Virus record (IMG/VR): IMGVR_UViG_3300015202_000003
Coordinates: 1-64,000 of that record
DNA: 64,000 nt
From: a virus
Reading direction: 5' to 3' (one strand)
Positions 3,198 to 54,068 of the stretch are shown here, one piece after another. The position numbers and the translations under genes are program-made. How positions within the stretch are numbered: position 1 is the first letter of the stretch; each line of letters begins with the position of its first letter. The notes below the pieces were generated by a model that had not been told where the DNA came from, did not search any database, and was given only the letters and a program-made list of their open reading frames with translations.

Positions 3198-3815
3198 ATG
3201 ATTACTACAACAAAAAAGCGGGAGATGGCTGATTATTATTTGAAAGGTTTCTCCCTTACAGAAACAGCTAAGGAATTTGGAATTAATTCAGCAACTGTTC
3301 ACAATATTCTCAAAAAGTTAGGGATACCCCGAAGAACTGTGTCAGAGGGAAATTCTCTAAAATGGTTGAATTCTGATTTTCGTGATAATCAGGTAGATAA
3401 GAGGGTTGGAGTTTCATCAGGGGCTAAAGGTAAAAGTTGGAAATTAAAACATAGGAAATACTCCCCAAAAATGATAGGTGCAGGTAATCCTCAATGGAAA
3501 GGTGGGGTTACTAAACTAAGTTCTTTAATTAGATCTTTACCAGAATATATATTGTGGAGAGAAAAAATATTTAAGAGGGATAATTGGACTTGTCAAATCT
3601 GTTCTGATAGAACTTGCGTAGGTAATAAAGTTATTCTTCATGCTGATCATATTTACCCACTTCATAAATTAATTGAGGAGAACCAGATTAAATCCGTTCT
3701 AGAAGCTATTTTATGTGAACATCTATGGGAAATAGATAACGGAAGATGTCTTTGTATAGATTGCCATAAAAAGACAGATACTTTTGGGAAAAATGCTAAA
3801 AAGCTTTCGATATAG
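3198..3815 (+). CDS. HNH endonuclease with N-terminal helix-turn-helix
   Basis: A 205-aa protein. Residues about 5-50 form a helix-turn-helix (YLKGFSLTETAKEFGINSAT), as in DNA-binding domains of homing endonucleases. Residues about 125-200 carry the HNH nuclease: RDNWTCQICSDR, LHADHIYPLHK (His-Asp-His catalytic/metal site) and CLCIDCHKK, giving Zn-binding C..C pairs. It should nick or cut double-stranded DNA at a target site. The ATG at 3198 is preferred to the GTG one codon earlier. Its last 32 bases overlap the start of tnpB in another frame, so the two are translationally linked. There is no TnpA transposase nearby. Confidence 0.85.
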   Translation: MITTTKKREMADYYLKGFSLTETAKEFGINSATVHNILKKLGIPRRTVSEGNSLKWLNSDFRDNQVDKRVGVSSGAKGKSWKLKHRKYSPKMIGAGNPQWKGGVTKLSSLIRSLPEYILWREKIFKRDNWTCQICSDRTCVGNKVILHADHIYPLHKLIEENQIKSVLEAILCEHLWEIDNGRCLCIDCHKKTDTFGKNAKKLSI

Positions 3816-4905
3816 GATATACCCAAATAAAATACAACAAGATACGCTAAACAAAACGTTTGGGTGTTCTCGTTTCATTTATAACTGGGGCCTATCTCTT
3901 AAAATAAGCAGTTATATGAATACTGGTAAAGGATTGTCACGGTTTGCTCTTGACAAAGACCTTCCTAAATTAAAAGCAGAAAACCCTTGGCTTTCGGAAG
4001 TTCCTTCCCAAGTTTTACAACAAAGTTTGGTTGACCTCGATAAAGCCTTCACTAACTTTTTTAGAAAAACTACCAAATTTCCAAACTTTAAGAAAAAAAG
4101 AACAGATGCGTCTTGTAGATTTCCACAGGGTATCAAGGTTGATTTTGAAACTAACATAATATCTTTACCCAAACTGGGAAAAGTAAAAATTAAACTTAGT
4201 CGTAAATTTGTAGGCACAATTAAATCTTGCACAGTATCAAGAGGTTCTACTGGAAAGTTCTACGTATCAATTTTAGTAGATGATGGGGTCGGAGAAATTC
4301 CGAAACTTCCAATTCACCAAGACAGAGCAATTGGTGTTGATGTGGGACTTATTGATTTTATTACGACCTCTAAGGGAGAGAAAGTTAAAGCTCCTAAGTT
4401 TTATCGCGGTTTAGAAACTAAACTCAAGGAGGCCCAAAGGTTTGAGTCGAGAAAGAAGAAAGGTAGTAACAACAGAAAAAAAGCGAGACAAAGAGTAAAC
4501 CTTATTCACGAAAAGATTAAGAATTTAAGGTCTGATTTCCTTCATAAAACAAGCACTCGATTAGTTAATGAAAACCAAGTTATTTGTATCGAGGATTTAA
4601 ATGTGAAAGGAATGATGAAGAACCGAAAATTGTCTAAGAGTATCGGAGATGTGGGTTGGTCTGAATTTTTTAGGATGTTGGAATACAAATCTGAAAAAGT
4701 TGGAAAAACAGTTTTGAAGATTAATCGTTTTCAACCGAGTTCAAAAATATGTTCTTGTGGGGAAGTTAACAAAATCCTGACTCTTTCTGATAGAAAATGG
4801 ACTTGTTCTAATTGTAATTTGACTCACGATAGAGATGTATTAGCAGCACAAAATATTCTCAAGTTCGCTTTTTTAGAAAATTTAACGCGCAGGGACACTG
4901 CGTAG
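3784..4905 (+). CDS. tnpB: TnpB, RNA-guided nuclease of an IS200/IS605-type element
   Basis: A 373-aa protein, usual TnpB length. The N-terminal wedge/REC part (FRYRIYPNKIQQDTLNKTFG) is followed by a RuvC-like nuclease with all three acidic residues: Asp186 (GVDVGLIDF), Glu270 (ICIEDLNVKG) and Asp351 (THDRDVLAAQNI). A zinc finger, CSCG ... CSNC (323-344), lies between the last two. The protein therefore looks active. TnpB uses the right-end RNA as guide to cut the donor site after excision and so keeps the element in place. ATG at 3784 overlaps the HNH gene; the ATG at 3793 (MLKSFRYRIYPN) matches the usual TnpB N-terminus equally well. The last codons lie inside the guide-RNA scaffold. Confidence 0.93.
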   Translation: MGKMLKSFRYRIYPNKIQQDTLNKTFGCSRFIYNWGLSLKISSYMNTGKGLSRFALDKDLPKLKAENPWLSEVPSQVLQQSLVDLDKAFTNFFRKTTKFPNFKKKRTDASCRFPQGIKVDFETNIISLPKLGKVKIKLSRKFVGTIKSCTVSRGSTGKFYVSILVDDGVGEIPKLPIHQDRAIGVDVGLIDFITTSKGEKVKAPKFYRGLETKLKEAQRFESRKKKGSNNRKKARQRVNLIHEKIKNLRSDFLHKTSTRLVNENQVICIEDLNVKGMMKNRKLSKSIGDVGWSEFFRMLEYKSEKVGKTVLKINRFQPSSKICSCGEVNKILTLSDRKWTCSNCNLTHDRDVLAAQNILKFAFLENLTRRDTA

Positions 4906-15472: not shown

Positions 15473-17566
15473 ATGTTAGAACAAGAAGAAAATTTTCCTG
15501 AAATTCCTTTAGCAATAGAGATAGAAGATAAAATAGAAGAGACTAAAGCAGAGACAGAAACTCCAAAACCTAAATTGCACGAAAAAGATAATTTTAATTT
15601 AATTCCTGAAATTACGCTCACTGAATTGCAAGAAAAAGGTATTCGTTTTTTATTAAGTAGAAAGGGTGGTATTTTAAATCTCTCAACTGGGTCAGGGAAA
15701 TGTCTCGGTTTTAATACTCCTGTTTTAATGTTTGACGGGACAGTTAAAATGTCCCAAAACATCGAGGTTGGTGATTTATTGATGGGGCCGGACTCTAAGA
15801 AAAGAACTGTTGTTTCTTTGGGTAGAGGTAGAGAAATAATGTATGAAGTAAGACCTTTTGATAAGGGTATAATTTGGAGTTGCAACGAATCTCACATTTT
15901 ATCTTTAATAAGGCCCTTGACGGGGGAAGTATCTAATGTTTCAATTGTGGATTTAAAAAAAGAGTGCGATGAAATAGAGGATCAAGTTTTTACAGGGTGG
16001 CGCTCTCCTGTTTTTGTTGAAGGACAAGAAAGAGTTTTAGGAGAAAAGAGATTTTTCAATTTTAGTTTGGTTTCTTTAGGAGAAGGGGATTATTACGGTT
16101 GGACATTAAAAGAAGACCCTTTATTCCTTTTAGGCGATTTTACTGTTACACACAACACGTTTTTGGCCGCTCATGCAGGGATTCATTTTATGGATTCTTA
16201 TGAAAATACGAGGTTCGTTTGTTTTGTTCCCGCAGAAGCCAATAAAGTATGGAGAAAAACATTTAGAGCATTAAAAGAACCTTACGTTTTATTTGAAGCT
16301 AAAGGGGTTGAAAAATTCGATTGTTCTTTTATAGAAGACGCGAGAGTTTTCATTTTTAATTTCAGCAGCATGGAAAAATTTGAAGCTGAAATAATAGAAA
16401 GACTAAAAAATTACGAGTGTATTTTTCTGGTAGATGAAGCGCACGCTTTGAGCAATTCGACTTCGAGGCAATCTCGTTCTCTGAAGTATTATAGAAAATA
16501 TGCACGTTTAACATGGCTTCTTACGGCAACAAGTGTTCGTTCTTTACCTGCTATTAGAGGTTTATTTAATTTAGTTGATTTTGTTTTACCGGGTTATTTA
16601 GGTTCTTGGTCTAAATTTAAAGACGATTTCTTAATCTGGCGCTGGAATATCATTAGAAGTTCTAATGGAAAAACAATAAAAACAGAGGAAATAATTGCTC
16701 TCAAAAACGAGAGTGTTTTAAAAGAAAAATTATCTCTTTTAATGTTTGTAGGAACTGTTAATTACAACGTAGATTTTCATTATCACACATGCTCTTTGTC
16801 GGAGGAGGAATTTTCTTATTACAGGGAAGCGGGGGCGGGACTGTTGAAAAATTTCGAGCGCAAAGAATTTGCGAGCCGCTTGCACGATTTACAAAGAGTA
16901 GTAGATAATTCGATGGATGGTTTGCCCGAATCTTTACAAAAGAAAATTTCATCTAAAGAGCGATTATTATTAAAAGTTATAGAAGAAAAGATTTTAAGTA
17001 AAAATGAAAGCGTTATACTTTTTGCGGAACATATATCTACTCTTCAAAGATTGGAGTTTATTTTAAATATTGCTAAAAATAGAGGCTTAATAAACTTTTC
17101 TCAGATTTTAAAAATTACGGGTTTAGAGAATAAGAAAGACAGGGATAAAGCGGAAGACAGTATTATTCCCGGCACAATATTGTTGGCTTCACGCGCCAGT
17201 TCTCAGTCTCGAAATCTGCAAGCAGCGTCTCATGTAGTTTTTTACGACTTGCCTTTCTCTCTTTCGGTTTTTCTTCAATCTTGTGGCAGGATCACGAGAA
17301 TAGATTCAAAACATGAAAGACAATCAATTCACATTTTTACTGCATTAGAAACAGTAGATTTTTACAAGTTGCTTTTAGTCAAAGAGAACGCCCATGTTTT
17401 TACTCAAATAATCGAGGGAAATTCAAACCTCCCCGAAGTTGCTCAGATTGACAGGACATTCATAGGAGATTTAAGAAAGCGCCTTCTTTGGGGTTTTAAA
17501 CATAAAAAAATTCTCTCTTTAAAAGAATTGAGTGAACAAGCCGCACAAAAAGATTTAAAAGATTAG
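15473..17566 (+). CDS. SF2 (SNF2-like) helicase with a mini-intein in Walker A
   Basis: 697-aa precursor. Host protein: Walker A STGSGK/T split by the intein (residues 71-76 and 229), DEAH box FLVDEAHALS (about 320-329), motif III LTATS, motif V/VI LLASRASSQSRNLQAASHVV and QSCGRITRID. This is an ATP-driven DNA translocase/helicase of superfamily 2. The intein is residues 77-228, from CLGFNTPVL to VTHN, with Thr as +1 residue. Once spliced out, the mature protein would be about 545 aa. It probably helps origin opening, fork restart or recombination. Stands alone after tRNA-Ile. Confidence 0.88.
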   Translation: MLEQEENFPEIPLAIEIEDKIEETKAETETPKPKLHEKDNFNLIPEITLTELQEKGIRFLLSRKGGILNLSTGSGKCLGFNTPVLMFDGTVKMSQNIEVGDLLMGPDSKKRTVVSLGRGREIMYEVRPFDKGIIWSCNESHILSLIRPLTGEVSNVSIVDLKKECDEIEDQVFTGWRSPVFVEGQERVLGEKRFFNFSLVSLGEGDYYGWTLKEDPLFLLGDFTVTHNTFLAAHAGIHFMDSYENTRFVCFVPAEANKVWRKTFRALKEPYVLFEAKGVEKFDCSFIEDARVFIFNFSSMEKFEAEIIERLKNYECIFLVDEAHALSNSTSRQSRSLKYYRKYARLTWLLTATSVRSLPAIRGLFNLVDFVLPGYLGSWSKFKDDFLIWRWNIIRSSNGKTIKTEEIIALKNESVLKEKLSLLMFVGTVNYNVDFHYHTCSLSEEEFSYYREAGAGLLKNFERKEFASRLHDLQRVVDNSMDGLPESLQKKISSKERLLLKVIEEKILSKNESVILFAEHISTLQRLEFILNIAKNRGLINFSQILKITGLENKKDRDKAEDSIIPGTILLASRASSQSRNLQAASHVVFYDLPFSLSVFLQSCGRITRIDSKHERQSIHIFTALETVDFYKLLLVKENAHVFTQIIEGNSNLPEVAQIDRTFIGDLRKRLLWGFKHKKILSLKELSEQAAQKDLKD
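15701..16156 (+). other. Mini-intein (152 aa) inside the helicase
   Basis: Begins Cys-LGFNTPVLMFDG (block A) at Cys77, has block B CNESHILSL, and ends GDFTVTHN followed by Thr. There is no LAGLIDADG or HNH endonuclease, so it has lost or never had homing activity. It sits between Lys and Thr of GSGKT, so the helicase cannot bind ATP until splicing is done. Confidence 0.9.
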
Positions 17567-49610: not shown

Positions 49611-50618
49611 ATGAAAAAAATAGATTCAAAAAAACCTCAACTTAATATTTTTGAAGAAGAAAGTCCTAACATTGTTAAAAAAGAGGATTGGGAGTATGTG
49701 GGAGAAGCAGAAACAACCTTAGCCGATTACGAACACTATATTCCTAAAGTTCTTCCTGACCACGATTTTTTAGATAGACACCCTTTAGTTTGTGTAGACA
49801 CCCAAGAACATTTAATTAAAATTTTAAAAGAGCATGAGAATCAAACCCTATGTGCTTTTGACTTGGAAACAAATTCTTTAGACCCGGAGAAAGAGACTTC
49901 TTTTATAATTGGAGTTGCTTTGTGTATGGACGGCATAACGGGCTATTATGTGCCCATACAACACGAATGGGGAGGTTTAGGGAAAGAAGGTTTAGATTCG
50001 ATTTATGCCTATCTTATAGACGAAAAGAGAGAGAAAATTTTAACTTTCAACCAACGTTTTGATTTTAGATGGATGGAATTTAAGGGTTATGATATGAGCG
50101 TCATATCATTAAACAAAAAATCTTACGACATCCAAACAGGGATTTTCCTTTCGGACACAAATATTTCTTGGCCTTCTTTAAAAAAATCAGAGAAACATTT
50201 CTTAGGTGTTTATCGTTCCAATTACGAAGAGACTTTGGGGGATAATTTGATACTTTATTCAGTTGATGCCGCTACGGTTACACGTTATGCAGCTTGTTTA
50301 TCAGGGGACACTTTAATTAAAACTAATTTTGGCGATTTAACTATTTTAGAAATTAGAAATTACATTGAATCTGGTAAAAATATAAAAGTCAACACCTCTT
50401 TAGGAGAAAACAATGTATTGTCAGTGTTAAATCAAGGTTTTAAAGATACAATTGAAATCGAACTTGAAACTGGAAAAATAATAATTTGCACAGAAGATCA
50501 CAAGTTACTGGTTAGAAACAAAGATTTTTTTTATTGGAAGGAAGCTGGAAAAATTTCAGAAAACGACGAATTAGCTACAATAGAAGAGATTAAGTCTTTA
50601 GACCTAAATCTCTTATGA
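49611..50618 (+). CDS. polA: DNA polymerase A, part 1 (3'-5' exonuclease) fused to a split N-intein
   Basis: 335 aa. Residues 1-228 are the start of a family-A polymerase: Exo I CAFDLETNSL (Asp84, Glu86), Exo II FNQRFDFRWM (Asp151), and SVDAATVTRYAA leading to Exo III. At Cys229 an intein begins (CLSGDTLIKTNFG, block A; TEDHKLLV, block B) and the gene stops after 107 intein residues. The other intein half is at the start of the next gene. Trans-splicing is needed to join RYAA to CDALTTYLLY and so complete Exo III. Confidence 0.9.
   Translation: MKKIDSKKPQLNIFEEESPNIVKKEDWEYVGEAETTLADYEHYIPKVLPDHDFLDRHPLVCVDTQEHLIKILKEHENQTLCAFDLETNSLDPEKETSFIIGVALCMDGITGYYVPIQHEWGGLGKEGLDSIYAYLIDEKREKILTFNQRFDFRWMEFKGYDMSVISLNKKSYDIQTGIFLSDTNISWPSLKKSEKHFLGVYRSNYEETLGDNLILYSVDAATVTRYAACLSGDTLIKTNFGDLTILEIRNYIESGKNIKVNTSLGENNVLSVLNQGFKDTIEIELETGKIIICTEDHKLLVRNKDFFYWKEAGKISENDELATIEEIKSLDLNLL
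50295..50615 (+). other. Split intein 1, N-part (107 aa)
   Basis: From Cys229 CLSGDTLIKTNFGDLTILEI to SLDLNLL. Contains block A with the nucleophile Cys and block B with TEDH. No endonuclease. Confidence 0.88.
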
Positions 50619-50655
50619 AAACAATACATCCTTATTTTTCATTTAAAATAGGTTC

Positions 50656-50686
50656 AAGAAAGTGGAAGCACGACTTTCTTTTTTGA
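50656..50686 (+). terminator. Terminator between the two halves of split intein 1
   Basis: aagaaagt-ggaagcacg-actttctt followed by TTTT. It lies in the 99-base gap (50619-50717) that also has stops in the intein frame, so the halves are separate translation units and may also be separately controlled. Confidence 0.75.
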
Positions 50687-50717
50687 ATAGAAAAAAAGAA
50701 AAGGTTTTTAACAAACC

Positions 50718-50822
50718 ATGAAAATTAAAAATATTAAGAAAGGTTATAAGATAGAAGTTTTTGATTTATCTGTAGAAAATCAACATCATTTTGAGTTGTC
50801 TAACGGTGTTATTGCTCATAAT
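50718..50822 (+). other. Split intein 1, C-part (35 aa)
   Basis: Own ATG; ends GVIAHN before +1 Cys. Length and block F (VFDLSVENQHHFEL) are normal for a natural C-intein. Confidence 0.9.
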
Positions 50823-51908
50823 TGTGATGCACTAACAACTTATCTTTTATATCCCATAGCCTTAGAGTTTACGAAAGAAGCGAAGTTATCTGGCTTCTTA
50901 GACAATTATTTTTTATATCCTTTTCAAAAATGTGAAGAGCAAAAAACAGCAATAGATGTAGAATATCTATTAGGTTTTCAAAAAGAAGTGGACGATGCCT
51001 TAACAGAGAACACAAAGAAAATATTTGAATTGGCGGGAGAGCCTTTCAATATTTCTTCCACTAAGCAAAAATCTTTAGTTTTAGAAAAATTAAAAGTAAA
51101 ACTTCCCAAATCAGAAAAAACGGGTTTATTAAAAGCGAGCAAAGATTTATTGGATAAAATTAAATTAAAACATCCTATTATCCCGTTATTGTTAGAACAT
51201 TCGGAATTAAAACAGAATCGTAATTCTTATTTAAAACCTTTGCTTCGAGGTGTGGGATTAAACGAAGACCCTGAAAAAAATAAAGATGTTGATTTAACTA
51301 TTCCCAGAGGTGTTAGATTTTCTTATCAATTAACTGTAGCAAGCACTTCAAGATTATCTGGAGGTAAAGATTCTAACAATAGTTTTTTTCCTTCTAAAGC
51401 TAACATTCAAAATTTTCGTAAACCTAAATCTCAATTGTGGAGTTTTAGAAAATTGGAAGAAGATTTAGAATTAGCTTCGGATTCGGAATTAGTTTTAGGA
51501 TATGAATTTAATCCTAATTCTGAACTTTATGAATTTAAGTGTGAAGGTTTTAAACCTCAAGCTAACATTAGAAAAGCATTTAGAGCATCTTCTGATAATT
51601 CTTGTCTGTGGGTGGGAATTGACTTTTGCATTGACCCTGAAAGTTTAGTTGAGTTGAAAAACGGTTCAAAAACACCTTTAAAGAATCTAAAAAACAACCC
51701 TCAAGAAATTAAAACACCTAACGGATACCAATTAGCTCATTCTTATCGAGAAACGGGGAAAAAGGAAAAGTGTGTTCTTACTTTGAAATCAGGTAAAAAA
51801 GTAGTTTGTTCTCCTGACCACAAATTCAAAGTTTTAAATTTATTTGGAGAAGAAATTTGGAAACCTTTAAATGAAATTATTCCTTCAGATATAGTCGTTG
51901 AAATTTAA
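50718..51908 (+). CDS. polA: DNA polymerase A, part 2, between two split inteins
   Basis: 396 aa. Residues 1-35 are the C-part of split intein 1 (MKIKNIKKGYKIEVFDLSVE and NGVIAHN, blocks F and G), followed by Cys36-DALTTYLL (Exo III, +1 Cys). Residues 36-303 are polymerase: end of the exonuclease and the thumb/palm to LWVGIDF, i.e. the catalytic Asp of motif A. At Cys304 (CIDPESLVELKNG) split intein 2 begins and runs to the stop (93 aa). Ribosome site aaaagg before the ATG. No activity expected without splicing on both sides. Confidence 0.9.
   Translation: MKIKNIKKGYKIEVFDLSVENQHHFELSNGVIAHNCDALTTYLLYPIALEFTKEAKLSGFLDNYFLYPFQKCEEQKTAIDVEYLLGFQKEVDDALTENTKKIFELAGEPFNISSTKQKSLVLEKLKVKLPKSEKTGLLKASKDLLDKIKLKHPIIPLLLEHSELKQNRNSYLKPLLRGVGLNEDPEKNKDVDLTIPRGVRFSYQLTVASTSRLSGGKDSNNSFFPSKANIQNFRKPKSQLWSFRKLEEDLELASDSELVLGYEFNPNSELYEFKCEGFKPQANIRKAFRASSDNSCLWVGIDFCIDPESLVELKNGSKTPLKNLKNNPQEIKTPNGYQLAHSYRETGKKEKCVLTLKSGKKVVCSPDHKFKVLNLFGEEIWKPLNEIIPSDIVVEI
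51627..51905 (+). other. Split intein 2, N-part (93 aa)
   Basis: CIDPESLVELKNGSKTPLKN (block A) to SDIVVEI; block B CSPDHKFKV. The stop TAA at 51906-51908 is followed, in the same frame, by open sequence to the next gene. Confidence 0.85.
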
Positions 51909-51938
51909 CTACTCGGATTTTTACAAAAGAAATATACC

Positions 51939-52118
51939 GTGAACAGAACAGGGTATGGTTTAACAAGGAAAAAATTAAATTTGATGAACACTACGCTATA
52001 CGGGGATTCCCTGTCTAATATTCAATCTATAGAATTTTTAGAAGATGTAATGGAGATGTGTGAAATAACAGTTGAGAACGAACATTGTTATTTTGCTAAT
52101 GACGTATTAACGCATAAT
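51939..52118 (+). other. Split intein 2, C-part (45-60 aa)
   Basis: Block F MEMCEITVENEHCYFAND and block G VLTHN before +1 Cys at 52119. Start either GTG 51939 or ATG 51984. Confidence 0.85.
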
Positions 52119-54068
52119 TGCGGTCAAGAAATTCGTGTTATGGCTTTAATGTCTAAAGAGCCTACTTGGATAAAATCATTTAAAAACAATGAAGACCTTC
52201 ACAAACAAATGGCTATCAAAATGTGGGGAGAAGAAAATTATACAAGAGATTTACGCAAAAAAGCTAAATCTTTGAATTTCGGCCTGATTTTTGGCATGGG
52301 TGCTGGAACCTTAGCAGCCAGAGAAAATTTAACAAAGCAAGAAGCGGAGGAACAACATCGTTTATGGTGGAAAGCAGTTCCTAAAATTAAAGAGTGGTGC
52401 AATGCACAAGTTGGAGAATCTAAAAAAACAGGTGTTTTATACAATGCTTTTGGAAGACCTCGTAGATTGAAATGGTATTGGAAACAACAGTCTGGAATGA
52501 TTAAATCCTTTGCTAAAAGAACGGCTTATAATTGTAATATTCAATCATGTCTTCAAGCCCATACTTTGATACTTACAAATAAAGGGTATAAATCTATAAA
52601 AGAAGTTTTTGATAACCCTGCTAATTTAAAAGTTTGGACAGGCACTTCTTGGGAGTTTTTCACAGCTAAATATATGGGTAAAGCGAGGCCAATTAAAATG
52701 TTTTTGTCTGACGGTTCCTGTTTAGATTGTGATGAAAACCATCAGGTATTAGTTGTTGATGGTGAAAATTATAAATTTAAAAAGGTTTTAAATTTAGATA
52801 AAAACGATTTCGTTTGTCAAAGTTATCCCCGTCCTTTAAAATATGGAGAGTGCTTAAAAGGTTTTGAATTAAAAGGTAAAATACACAACTCAAATAAAAT
52901 TTCTGTAAAAGACGAGCAAATAACAGAGTTATGGTATTGGATAGGTCATTTGATTGGAGACGGTTGGATAAATGGAAAGGGTGACGGCATAGGCTTTGTT
53001 TTTGGCAGACATGAAAGAGACAGATTTGAAAAAATGAAGTTGTTTTTTACTTCTATTGGTTTTCCAGAAAAAGAGTGGGAAGAATTTAGTAATGAATTTG
53101 GACTTTATGCAAAAATAGATTATTATTCTAAGGGGTTTGTAGATTATTTAGTAGATATTTTTGGACTTAAAAGAGGTAAAACAGCACACACTAAAGAAAT
53201 GCCTTCTCGTTTATGGTCGGAAACTTTAAAAAATAGAACCTCTTTTATTAAAGGTTTATTTGACTCTGACGGCTCTAAATTGAAAACTGCTTTTCCTTCT
53301 TTACATCTATGTCAAAAACCTCTTTTGTTAGAAGTGCAAAAAATAGCAAGAACTTGCGGTTTGAAAAGCAATGTTTACGATTGTAATGAGGAAAAAGCAT
53401 ATATGTTACATCTAAAATGGACACCTGATTTCGCTAAAATTTTTCCTGAATGGACAGAAAGAAAGGTGCAGGATTCTTATAAAACCCCTTTAAATTTTGA
53501 AATGAAAAGTAGATTAATTGAGTCTTATAAAAAACCAATTAACTTTAAACCAAGAAACTATGCTATGATGTCTAAAGTAAAGACTGGAAGGTATGTTTCT
53601 TTAGCAGGTTCTGTATGTCTTGCAGAAAGAATGGGAGTTGAACGGAGAGATATAACTTATTCTACTTCTACCGTTAAAAATATTCTTATGGAAGAAACAG
53701 AAGTAGATACCTATACTTTAACTGTTCATTCCCCTTTACATAGATACGATTCTGAAGGAGTTATCTCTAAAAATTGTGGCGCTGATGTTTTAAAAATGGC
53801 GGTTATTCATCTTTTTAGAAATTTGTTAAATCATCCCGAATATAAAAACGATGTAAGGTTTTTATCTACTATTCACGATGAAATCAATTTTGGGGTTAAA
53901 AAAGAAAGAGCAATAGAAATCATCCCTCTTTTATTAAAAGACATGACAACACAACTTCCTGATTGGGAGTTTCCTTTAGAATGTGGTTTAAGTATTGGTA
54001 ATTCTTGGGGTTTAACATTTGATTTTAAAACGGAAGAAAACGGAGAAATTGCTCCTGTTCAGGCTTAG
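51939..54068 (+). CDS. polA: DNA polymerase A, part 3, with C-part of intein 2 and a full intein 3
   Basis: 709 aa from GTG; an in-frame ATG at 51984 gives 694 aa and a more usual C-intein of 45 aa. After DVLTHN comes Cys61-GQEIRVMALMSKEP (motif A completed: IDF-CGQEIRVMALMS), motif B LRKKAKSLNFGLIFGMGAG (105-123), and motif C STIHDEINFG (about 643-652). Intein 3 (residues 204-612) separates NCNIQS from CGADVLKMA. The mature polymerase would be about 736 aa from three genes. Confidence 0.9.
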   Translation: MNRTGYGLTRKKLNLMNTTLYGDSLSNIQSIEFLEDVMEMCEITVENEHCYFANDVLTHNCGQEIRVMALMSKEPTWIKSFKNNEDLHKQMAIKMWGEENYTRDLRKKAKSLNFGLIFGMGAGTLAARENLTKQEAEEQHRLWWKAVPKIKEWCNAQVGESKKTGVLYNAFGRPRRLKWYWKQQSGMIKSFAKRTAYNCNIQSCLQAHTLILTNKGYKSIKEVFDNPANLKVWTGTSWEFFTAKYMGKARPIKMFLSDGSCLDCDENHQVLVVDGENYKFKKVLNLDKNDFVCQSYPRPLKYGECLKGFELKGKIHNSNKISVKDEQITELWYWIGHLIGDGWINGKGDGIGFVFGRHERDRFEKMKLFFTSIGFPEKEWEEFSNEFGLYAKIDYYSKGFVDYLVDIFGLKRGKTAHTKEMPSRLWSETLKNRTSFIKGLFDSDGSKLKTAFPSLHLCQKPLLLEVQKIARTCGLKSNVYDCNEEKAYMLHLKWTPDFAKIFPEWTERKVQDSYKTPLNFEMKSRLIESYKKPINFKPRNYAMMSKVKTGRYVSLAGSVCLAERMGVERRDITYSTSTVKNILMEETEVDTYTLTVHSPLHRYDSEGVISKNCGADVLKMAVIHLFRNLLNHPEYKNDVRFLSTIHDEINFGVKKERAIEIIPLLLKDMTTQLPDWEFPLECGLSIGNSWGLTFDFKTEENGEIAPVQA
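52548..53774 (+). other. Intein 3 with LAGLIDADG-type endonuclease (409 aa)
   Basis: Begins Cys204 CLQAHTLILTNKGYKSIKEV (block A), block B CDENHQVLVV, dodecapeptide motifs WYWIGHLIGDGWINGKG and SFIKGLFDSDGSK, block F DTYTLTVHSPLHRYD, end GVISKN with +1 Cys. The penultimate residue is Lys rather than His, a known but less common variation that could slow splicing. The endonuclease would cut intein-free polA alleles. Confidence 0.88.

Follow-up and report, generated by a model that had tools for sequence, protein, structure and literature searches.

A family A DNA polymerase of a T4-like myophage encoded by three genes with two predicted split inteins and one cis intein

The window analyzed here is the first 64,000 nt of a 198,095-base IMG/VR record (IMGVR_UViG_3300015202_000003) from a T4-like myophage. 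In this window, a family A DNA polymerase with a 3'-5' exonuclease was found to be spread across three genes on the same strand (49611-50618, 50718-51908 and 51939-54068, all on the plus strand and all in one frame), as an earlier sequence-only reading of this DNA had proposed. The features of the locus are listed below; a slash in a motif marks a splice point.

49611..50618, plus strand: polA gene 1, an N-extein of 228 aa with Exo I and Exo II followed by N-intein 1
50295..50615, plus strand: N-intein 1, 107 aa (CLSGDT..), within Exo III and following YAA; TIGR01445 above the cut-off
50619..50717, plus strand: gap 1, 99 bp, non-coding by codon usage
50718..51908, plus strand: polA gene 2, C-intein 1 followed by a middle extein of 268 aa and N-intein 2
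50718..50822, plus strand: C-intein 1, 35 aa (MKIKNIKK..VIAHN); TIGR01443, 27.3 bits
51627..51905, plus strand: N-intein 2, 93 aa (CIDPES..), within motif A and following GIDF; gene 2 matched PF14890 with 36.7 bits
51906..51908, plus strand: TAA, the sole in-frame stop between the halves of intein 2
51984..54068, plus strand: polA gene 3 from its likely start, an ATG (open from GTG 51939), C-intein 2 followed by extein, cis intein and C-extein
51984..52118, plus strand: C-intein 2, 45 aa from ATG 51984 (..DVLTHN); TIGR01443, 14.3 bits, slightly under the cut-off
52119..52547, plus strand: gene 3 extein with the remainder of motif A and motif B (RKKAKSLNFGLIFG); PF00476 profile positions 160-303
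52548..53774, plus strand: cis intein 3, 409 aa, carrying the LAGLIDADG motifs GHLIGDGW and GLFDSDGS; PF05204, PF14528 and PF14890
53775..54065, plus strand: C-extein with motif C (TIHDEIN); PF00476 profile positions 305-380

Pfam and NCBIfam profiles matched an exonuclease and then an N-intein in gene 1, a C-intein, a polymerase and an N-intein in gene 2, and a C-intein, a polymerase and a homing-endonuclease intein in gene 3. The exonuclease of gene 1 (DNA_pol_A_exo1, PF01612) scored 31.2 bits compared to a cut-off of 23.6, and PF00476 was tiled by three pieces (profile positions 2-122, 160-303 and 305-380), the sole PF00476 match in the 198,095-base record. The spliced exteins amounted to 736 aa with all exonuclease and polymerase motifs present, and this protein matched the Klenow fragment with an E-value of 1.3e-39, covering both the exonuclease and the polymerase domains. 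The motifs found in the alignments were DLET, NQRFDF and YAA/CD (Exo I, II and III, respectively) and GIDF/CGQEIR, RKKAKSLNFGLIFG and IHDE (motifs A, B and C, respectively). With both the palm-fingers and the exonuclease domain found, the product was assigned to the family A polymerases with exonuclease. No match to PF07733 (DnaE-type) or PF00136 (family B) was found in the 198-kb record.

The three splice junctions are YAA/CDALTTYLL in Exo III, GIDF/CGQEIR in motif A and NIQS/CGADVLK before motif C, and all three carry a Cys at +1. The predicted junction peptides of the 736-aa chain are RYAACDALTTYLL, GIDFCGQEIR and NIQSCGADVLK. All three junctions were spanned by the alignment of the spliced protein with 18 viral relatives and five outgroups, in agreement with the insertion points first proposed. 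The matches to TIGR01445, TIGR01443 and PF14890 coincided with these junctions, and the lengths claimed for N-intein 1 (107 aa), C-intein 1 (35 aa), the cis intein (409 aa) and the spliced product (736 aa) were confirmed. The C-inteins end in AHN (intein 1), THN (intein 2) and SKN (intein 3), and the intein pieces were found to be coding by codon usage.

Intein 1 has the features of a naturally split intein: its halves are in separate ORFs, blocks A, B, F and G align with those of inteins, and Cys1, TxxH, a terminal HN and Cys+1 are present. N-intein 1 matched TIGR01445 with 30.8 bits (33.1 bits in the genome scan), and intein 1 reunited from its halves with the gap between them matched PF14890 with 50.6 bits compared to a gathering cut-off of 35.8. 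The AF2 model of intein 1 (pLDDT 65.5) contained a disordered linker, and the best 50 PDB matches listed for it were all inteins, intein-like (BIL) domains or intein-containing precursors, with E-values down to 1.5e-7. C-intein 1 was 42-57% identical to the C-halves of other phage split inteins, and 54-57% identical to the C-inteins of the fractured uvsX genes in L003 and L007. The Cys at +1 of the Exo III junction was also present in one other relative (L283), where no intein was seen.

Gap 1 contains an A/T-rich hairpin at approximately 50652-50688, whose 3' arm includes a run of T, and four in-frame stops (TGA, TAG, TAG and TAA). An assembly error at junction 1 is unlikely because these 99 bp hold several stops. 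An alternative genetic code bridging the genes was rejected, as TGA, TAG and TAA all occur in frame in gap 1 and TAA is the stop codon of 81 of the 126 ORFs counted. An RNA intron in the gaps was also rejected: no credible Rfam match was found in 50300-52150, a relaxed threshold included. As a control, the same relaxed settings detected the group I intron of the relative L185 at 95.5 bits, an intron that was missed by the broad Rfam scan at the gathering threshold.

The halves of intein 2 are parted by a single in-frame TAA. When reunited, they matched PF14890 with 39.7 bits compared to a cut-off of 35.8, and the intein blocks were present: Cys1 and the His of block B are in place, and a His-Asn end precedes Cys+1. 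The AF2 model of the reunited intein 2 was poor (pLDDT 50). N-intein 2 was closest to the motif-A split N-intein of L185 (38% identical). A Cys at +1 in motif A was found only in the window enzyme and in the relatives L319 and L273, both of which have an intein exactly there, and intein-free relatives carry other residues at this position. The gene 3 ORF claimed from GTG 51939 is present, and this start would give a C-intein 2 of 60 aa. However, ATG 51984 is the more likely start, with an SD-like energy of -5.4 compared to -0.9 for the GTG. The start stays uncertain since SD signals are weak across the whole genome of the record. The stretch from the TAA to ATG 51984 has no clear in-frame coding signal by codon usage and this, together with the best start signal at ATG 51984, favors a real split with a 45-aa C-half.

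Junction 2 hinges on one codon, and an assembly error is therefore less firmly dismissed there than at junction 1. If only intein 1 were truly split and intein 2 were a contiguous mini-intein of approximately 164 aa, the polymerase would be encoded by two genes, two of its three inteins would be in cis and one split, and the TAA at 51906 would be a consensus error, a nonsense variant in the population or a site of readthrough. Genes 2 and 3 do share a frame, with a single stop between them and no further stop in the linker, and the charges of intein 2 are cis-like (N-half +3, C-half -8), unlike those of the other natural split inteins measured. In contrast, an erroneous consensus at one particular codon would be a rare event, the break falls where inteins are usually split, directly behind the N-terminal part of Hint (the motif-A split intein of L185 is broken likewise), the codon usage of the linker is not clearly coding in frame, and ATG 51984 is preceded by an SD-like site. 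A two-gene arrangement is considered unlikely, and three genes with two split inteins remain the preferred reading, in which intein 2 looks to be the more recently split of the two.

Intein 3 has Hint blocks and two LAGLIDADG motifs (at residues 336 and 439 of gene 3) in one ORF, as in LAGLIDADG-bearing cis inteins. PF05204 and PF14528 were above the cut-off, and PF14890 scored 19.7 bits, below the cut-off. The intein ends in SKN/C, without the penultimate His of block G, and is also without the block F Asp. The penultimate His is usual but not universal, and some active inteins are without it. The two usual catalytic residues missing from intein 3, and a polA packed with elements throughout the clade of relatives, would fit a decaying, non-functional locus overrun by selfish elements in a phage that relies on the host replicase. 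Decay is very improbable, however, as the catalytic residues of both the exonuclease and the polymerase are all intact, the +1 Cys residues suit splice junctions, the codon usage of the intein pieces is that of coding DNA, and no other polymerase was found in the record. Although the relative L281 has a two-ORF polA with no recognizable intein at the break, it is also very improbable that the three pieces join non-covalently as a multi-subunit polymerase with vestigial intein parts, since both breaks fall within active-site motifs and inteins 1 and 2 retain Cys1, the His of block B and a final His-Asn ahead of Cys+1.

The record was found to hold nine inteins in five genes: three in polA, two in thyX, two in terL (TerL was named from the look of its sequence, without a profile hit), one in the portal gene and one in an SF2 helicase gene. 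HNH domains were found on the second ThyX intein, the second putative TerL intein and the portal intein. The inteins outside polA, or their loci, are as follows.

15701..16156, plus strand: 152-aa mini-intein after Walker A (GSGK/C..THN/T) of the SF2 helicase
91509-92474, 92562-93329, 121813-123141, 124636-125823 and 133561-134283: the other inteins or their loci

The portal protein is T4-like (PF07230), and among named phages the major capsid protein was closest to those of Listeria phage LIS04 (42%) and Bacillus phage SP-15 (39%). By the look of their sequence, TnpB-like ORFs are present at 3784-4905 of the window and at 107870-109030 and 192496-193680 of the record.

Relatives of the polymerase were collected by profile scans of IMG/VR, and a tree and an alignment were made with 18 viral relatives and five outgroups. 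The window enzyme fell in a phage PolA clade of 18 rows, itself included, with a support of 97/98, within which the tree did not resolve its position, and the nearest polymerase found was approximately 38% identical over its length. Single-protein scans of viral contigs gave only intein matches for gene 2 (L002-L004) and no matches for gene 3 or the portal protein. L005 and L006 were rejected as intein-bearing relatives, as each carries an intact bacterial-type PolI, and the matches in the genome-contig scan were apparently ordinary bacterial PolA genes.

Intein-free and differently split homologs, which the sequence-only reading had suggested searching for in metagenomes, were both recovered. 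Intein-free clade members included L178, L179, L180, L274 and L313, among others. Cis inteins were found in the polA of L319 (four, in a 2154-aa frame), L273 (four), L318 (three) and L099 (one); in the first three polA is contiguous, with no intein at the Exo III or the NIQS site. The C-terminal residue of the motif-A inteins of L319 and L273 is apparently Gln (NVHQ/C) and not Asn. The polA of L185 (IMG/VR contig 3300035497_000162, 2146-7693) contains a motif-A split intein and also has a group I intron in motif B (Rfam, 95.5 bits) and, at DVHKS, a cis intein. The C-half of its split intein bears a LAGLIDADG endonuclease, and the two genes overlap, with a GAGG-type start signal. The upstream exon of L185 seems to be one base out of frame just before the intron (TGC T AAT).

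Other breaks of polA were also observed. In L176, L177 and L277, an interruption of 1.7 to 3.2 kb lies close to the SGR motif of the gene, and Rfam found no intron in that of L176. In L281 (7767-10313), the break between the two ORFs follows SGRYAGGKF, with no recognizable intein, and the second part has an apparent TAA in a short leader. The two polA ORFs of L324 (3614-8297) are approximately 1.75 kb apart and their ends look intein-like but are without distinct blocks A and G; this may be a split intein of atypical form. L182 (7095-7120) and L183 (2320-2350), which come from different metagenomes, both have a +1 frame break at one and the same place, IAIW/c/GEENY (TGG CGG), which may be due either to programmed +1 frameshifting or to an indel common to the two. 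Many inteins in polA are usual for this clade (up to four in cis), and the clade is a hot spot for mobile elements, which is new here. Two tandem split inteins were seen in the window only and in no resolved relative. The arrangement had been called rare, and among the relatives inspected this holds for two split junctions in one protein, which stand out, but not for the presence of three inteins, which is not rare in the clade.

The layout of the locus, the intein blocks, the extein fit and the lack of another recognized polymerase are evident in the sequence. The profile matches, the fit of the exteins, the +1 Cys residues and the Hint fold predicted for intein 1 support the claim of two split inteins and one cis intein in one PolA, and suggest that the replicase is probably built from three polypeptides through two trans-splicing reactions and one cis reaction. 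N-intein 1 of gene 1 would pair with C-intein 1 of gene 2 and join YAA to CDA, which would restore Exo III. N-intein 2 of gene 2 would likewise pair with C-intein 2 of gene 3 and join GIDF to CGQEIR, which would restore motif A. The LAGLIDADG cis intein would excise itself from gene 3 and join NIQS to CGADV ahead of motif C. Three separately translated polypeptides would in this way become one replicative polymerase by tandem protein trans-splicing. As the exonuclease or the polymerase site is broken until each junction closes, no complete enzyme would be present before splicing. We infer translation of all pieces, splicing, its order and a preference for cognate pairs. The fractures probably arose in inteins that had earlier lost their endonucleases.

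A C-intein, extein and N-intein layout, as in the gene 2 product, is a laboratory route to cyclized proteins. If inteins 1 and 2 cross-reacted, the gene 2 product could cyclize or gene 1 could be joined directly to gene 3. The N-halves of the two inteins were 30% identical and the C-halves 39%. The charges of N-intein 1 and C-intein 1 were -7 and +1, matching the other natural split inteins measured (N-halves -6 to -14, C-halves +1 to +2), compared to +3 and -8 to -9 for N-intein 2 and C-intein 2, respectively. Opposite charge patterns in this small sample would favor cognate pairs. However, the charges of the cis inteins of the same genome were also mixed and the split intein of L185 (-7 and -3) followed neither pattern, so that the contrast may reflect only a recent split of intein 2. 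It is only tentatively proposed that this is natural tandem trans-splicing with two orthogonal inteins, in which charges prevent cyclization and skipping and assembly gates polymerase activity.

If the pieces splice, the locus would be a natural case of two serial trans-splicing reactions in one essential enzyme, with a built-in orthogonality, a property that protein engineers currently must screen for. In this clade a single gene, polA, shows repeated fractures, a group I intron and no fewer than eight different intein sites. It is a good setting to test the route from contiguous to split inteins and to ask if the fractures are neutral, selfish or regulatory.

Fractured phage genes with split inteins, as described by Dassa et al. 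in 2009, reportedly have a free homing endonuclease gene between the intein halves. The window shares the adjacent intein halves, but an endonuclease gene is absent from its gaps (99 bp, and 30-75 bp), which makes it a variant of the fractured genes and not a plain member. The literature searched, which did not include the 2009 text of Dassa et al., yielded no natural protein that is put together by means of two split inteins, and priority for the double split is therefore not established. The dnaE gene of Trichodesmium erythraeum is said to combine a split intein, at a single split junction, with further inteins (Liu and Yang, in 2003). Like the window gene, it encodes a replicative polymerase with split and other inteins; unlike it, it is of family C and on a bacterial chromosome.

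The polB gene of Pseudomonas phage MIJ3 is a split-intein phage polymerase gene (PMC6892783), and uvsX and gp43 of Vibrio phage vB_VmeM-32 (L007) are fractured with split inteins. As in the window, these replication genes are broken in conserved motifs with N- and C-intein ends, and C-intein 1 begins with MKIKNIKK, the same as in the uvsX examples. The fractured genes examined have one split junction per protein, often with an endonuclease gene between, whereas the window has two junctions, no gene between and an additional cis intein. L185, of the related PolA clade, has a motif-A split intein with a matching break point, but its insertion lies three residues upstream (WVS/CDF), its endonuclease is at the N-terminus of the C-half and it has no Exo III split. 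L319 and L273 have an intein at precisely the same motif-A site as the window, but in a contiguous form. In the parts of the reports considered, crAss-like and Jug phages have a high density of introns and inteins (PMC7886860, PMC12363816), with several elements in core genes, two inteins in TerL and split DNA polymerase genes; the elements described in those parts are mainly group I introns and cis inteins, with no double trans-splicing polymerase among them. Fractured genes with split inteins are known, and what stands out here is the predicted presence of two split junctions in one protein. Engineered tandem protein trans-splicing joins three segments with two orthogonal split inteins (PMC12707363), and its middle segment, like gene 2, lies between the C-intein and the N-intein of two different split inteins; that system is man-made, and the window holds a natural candidate.
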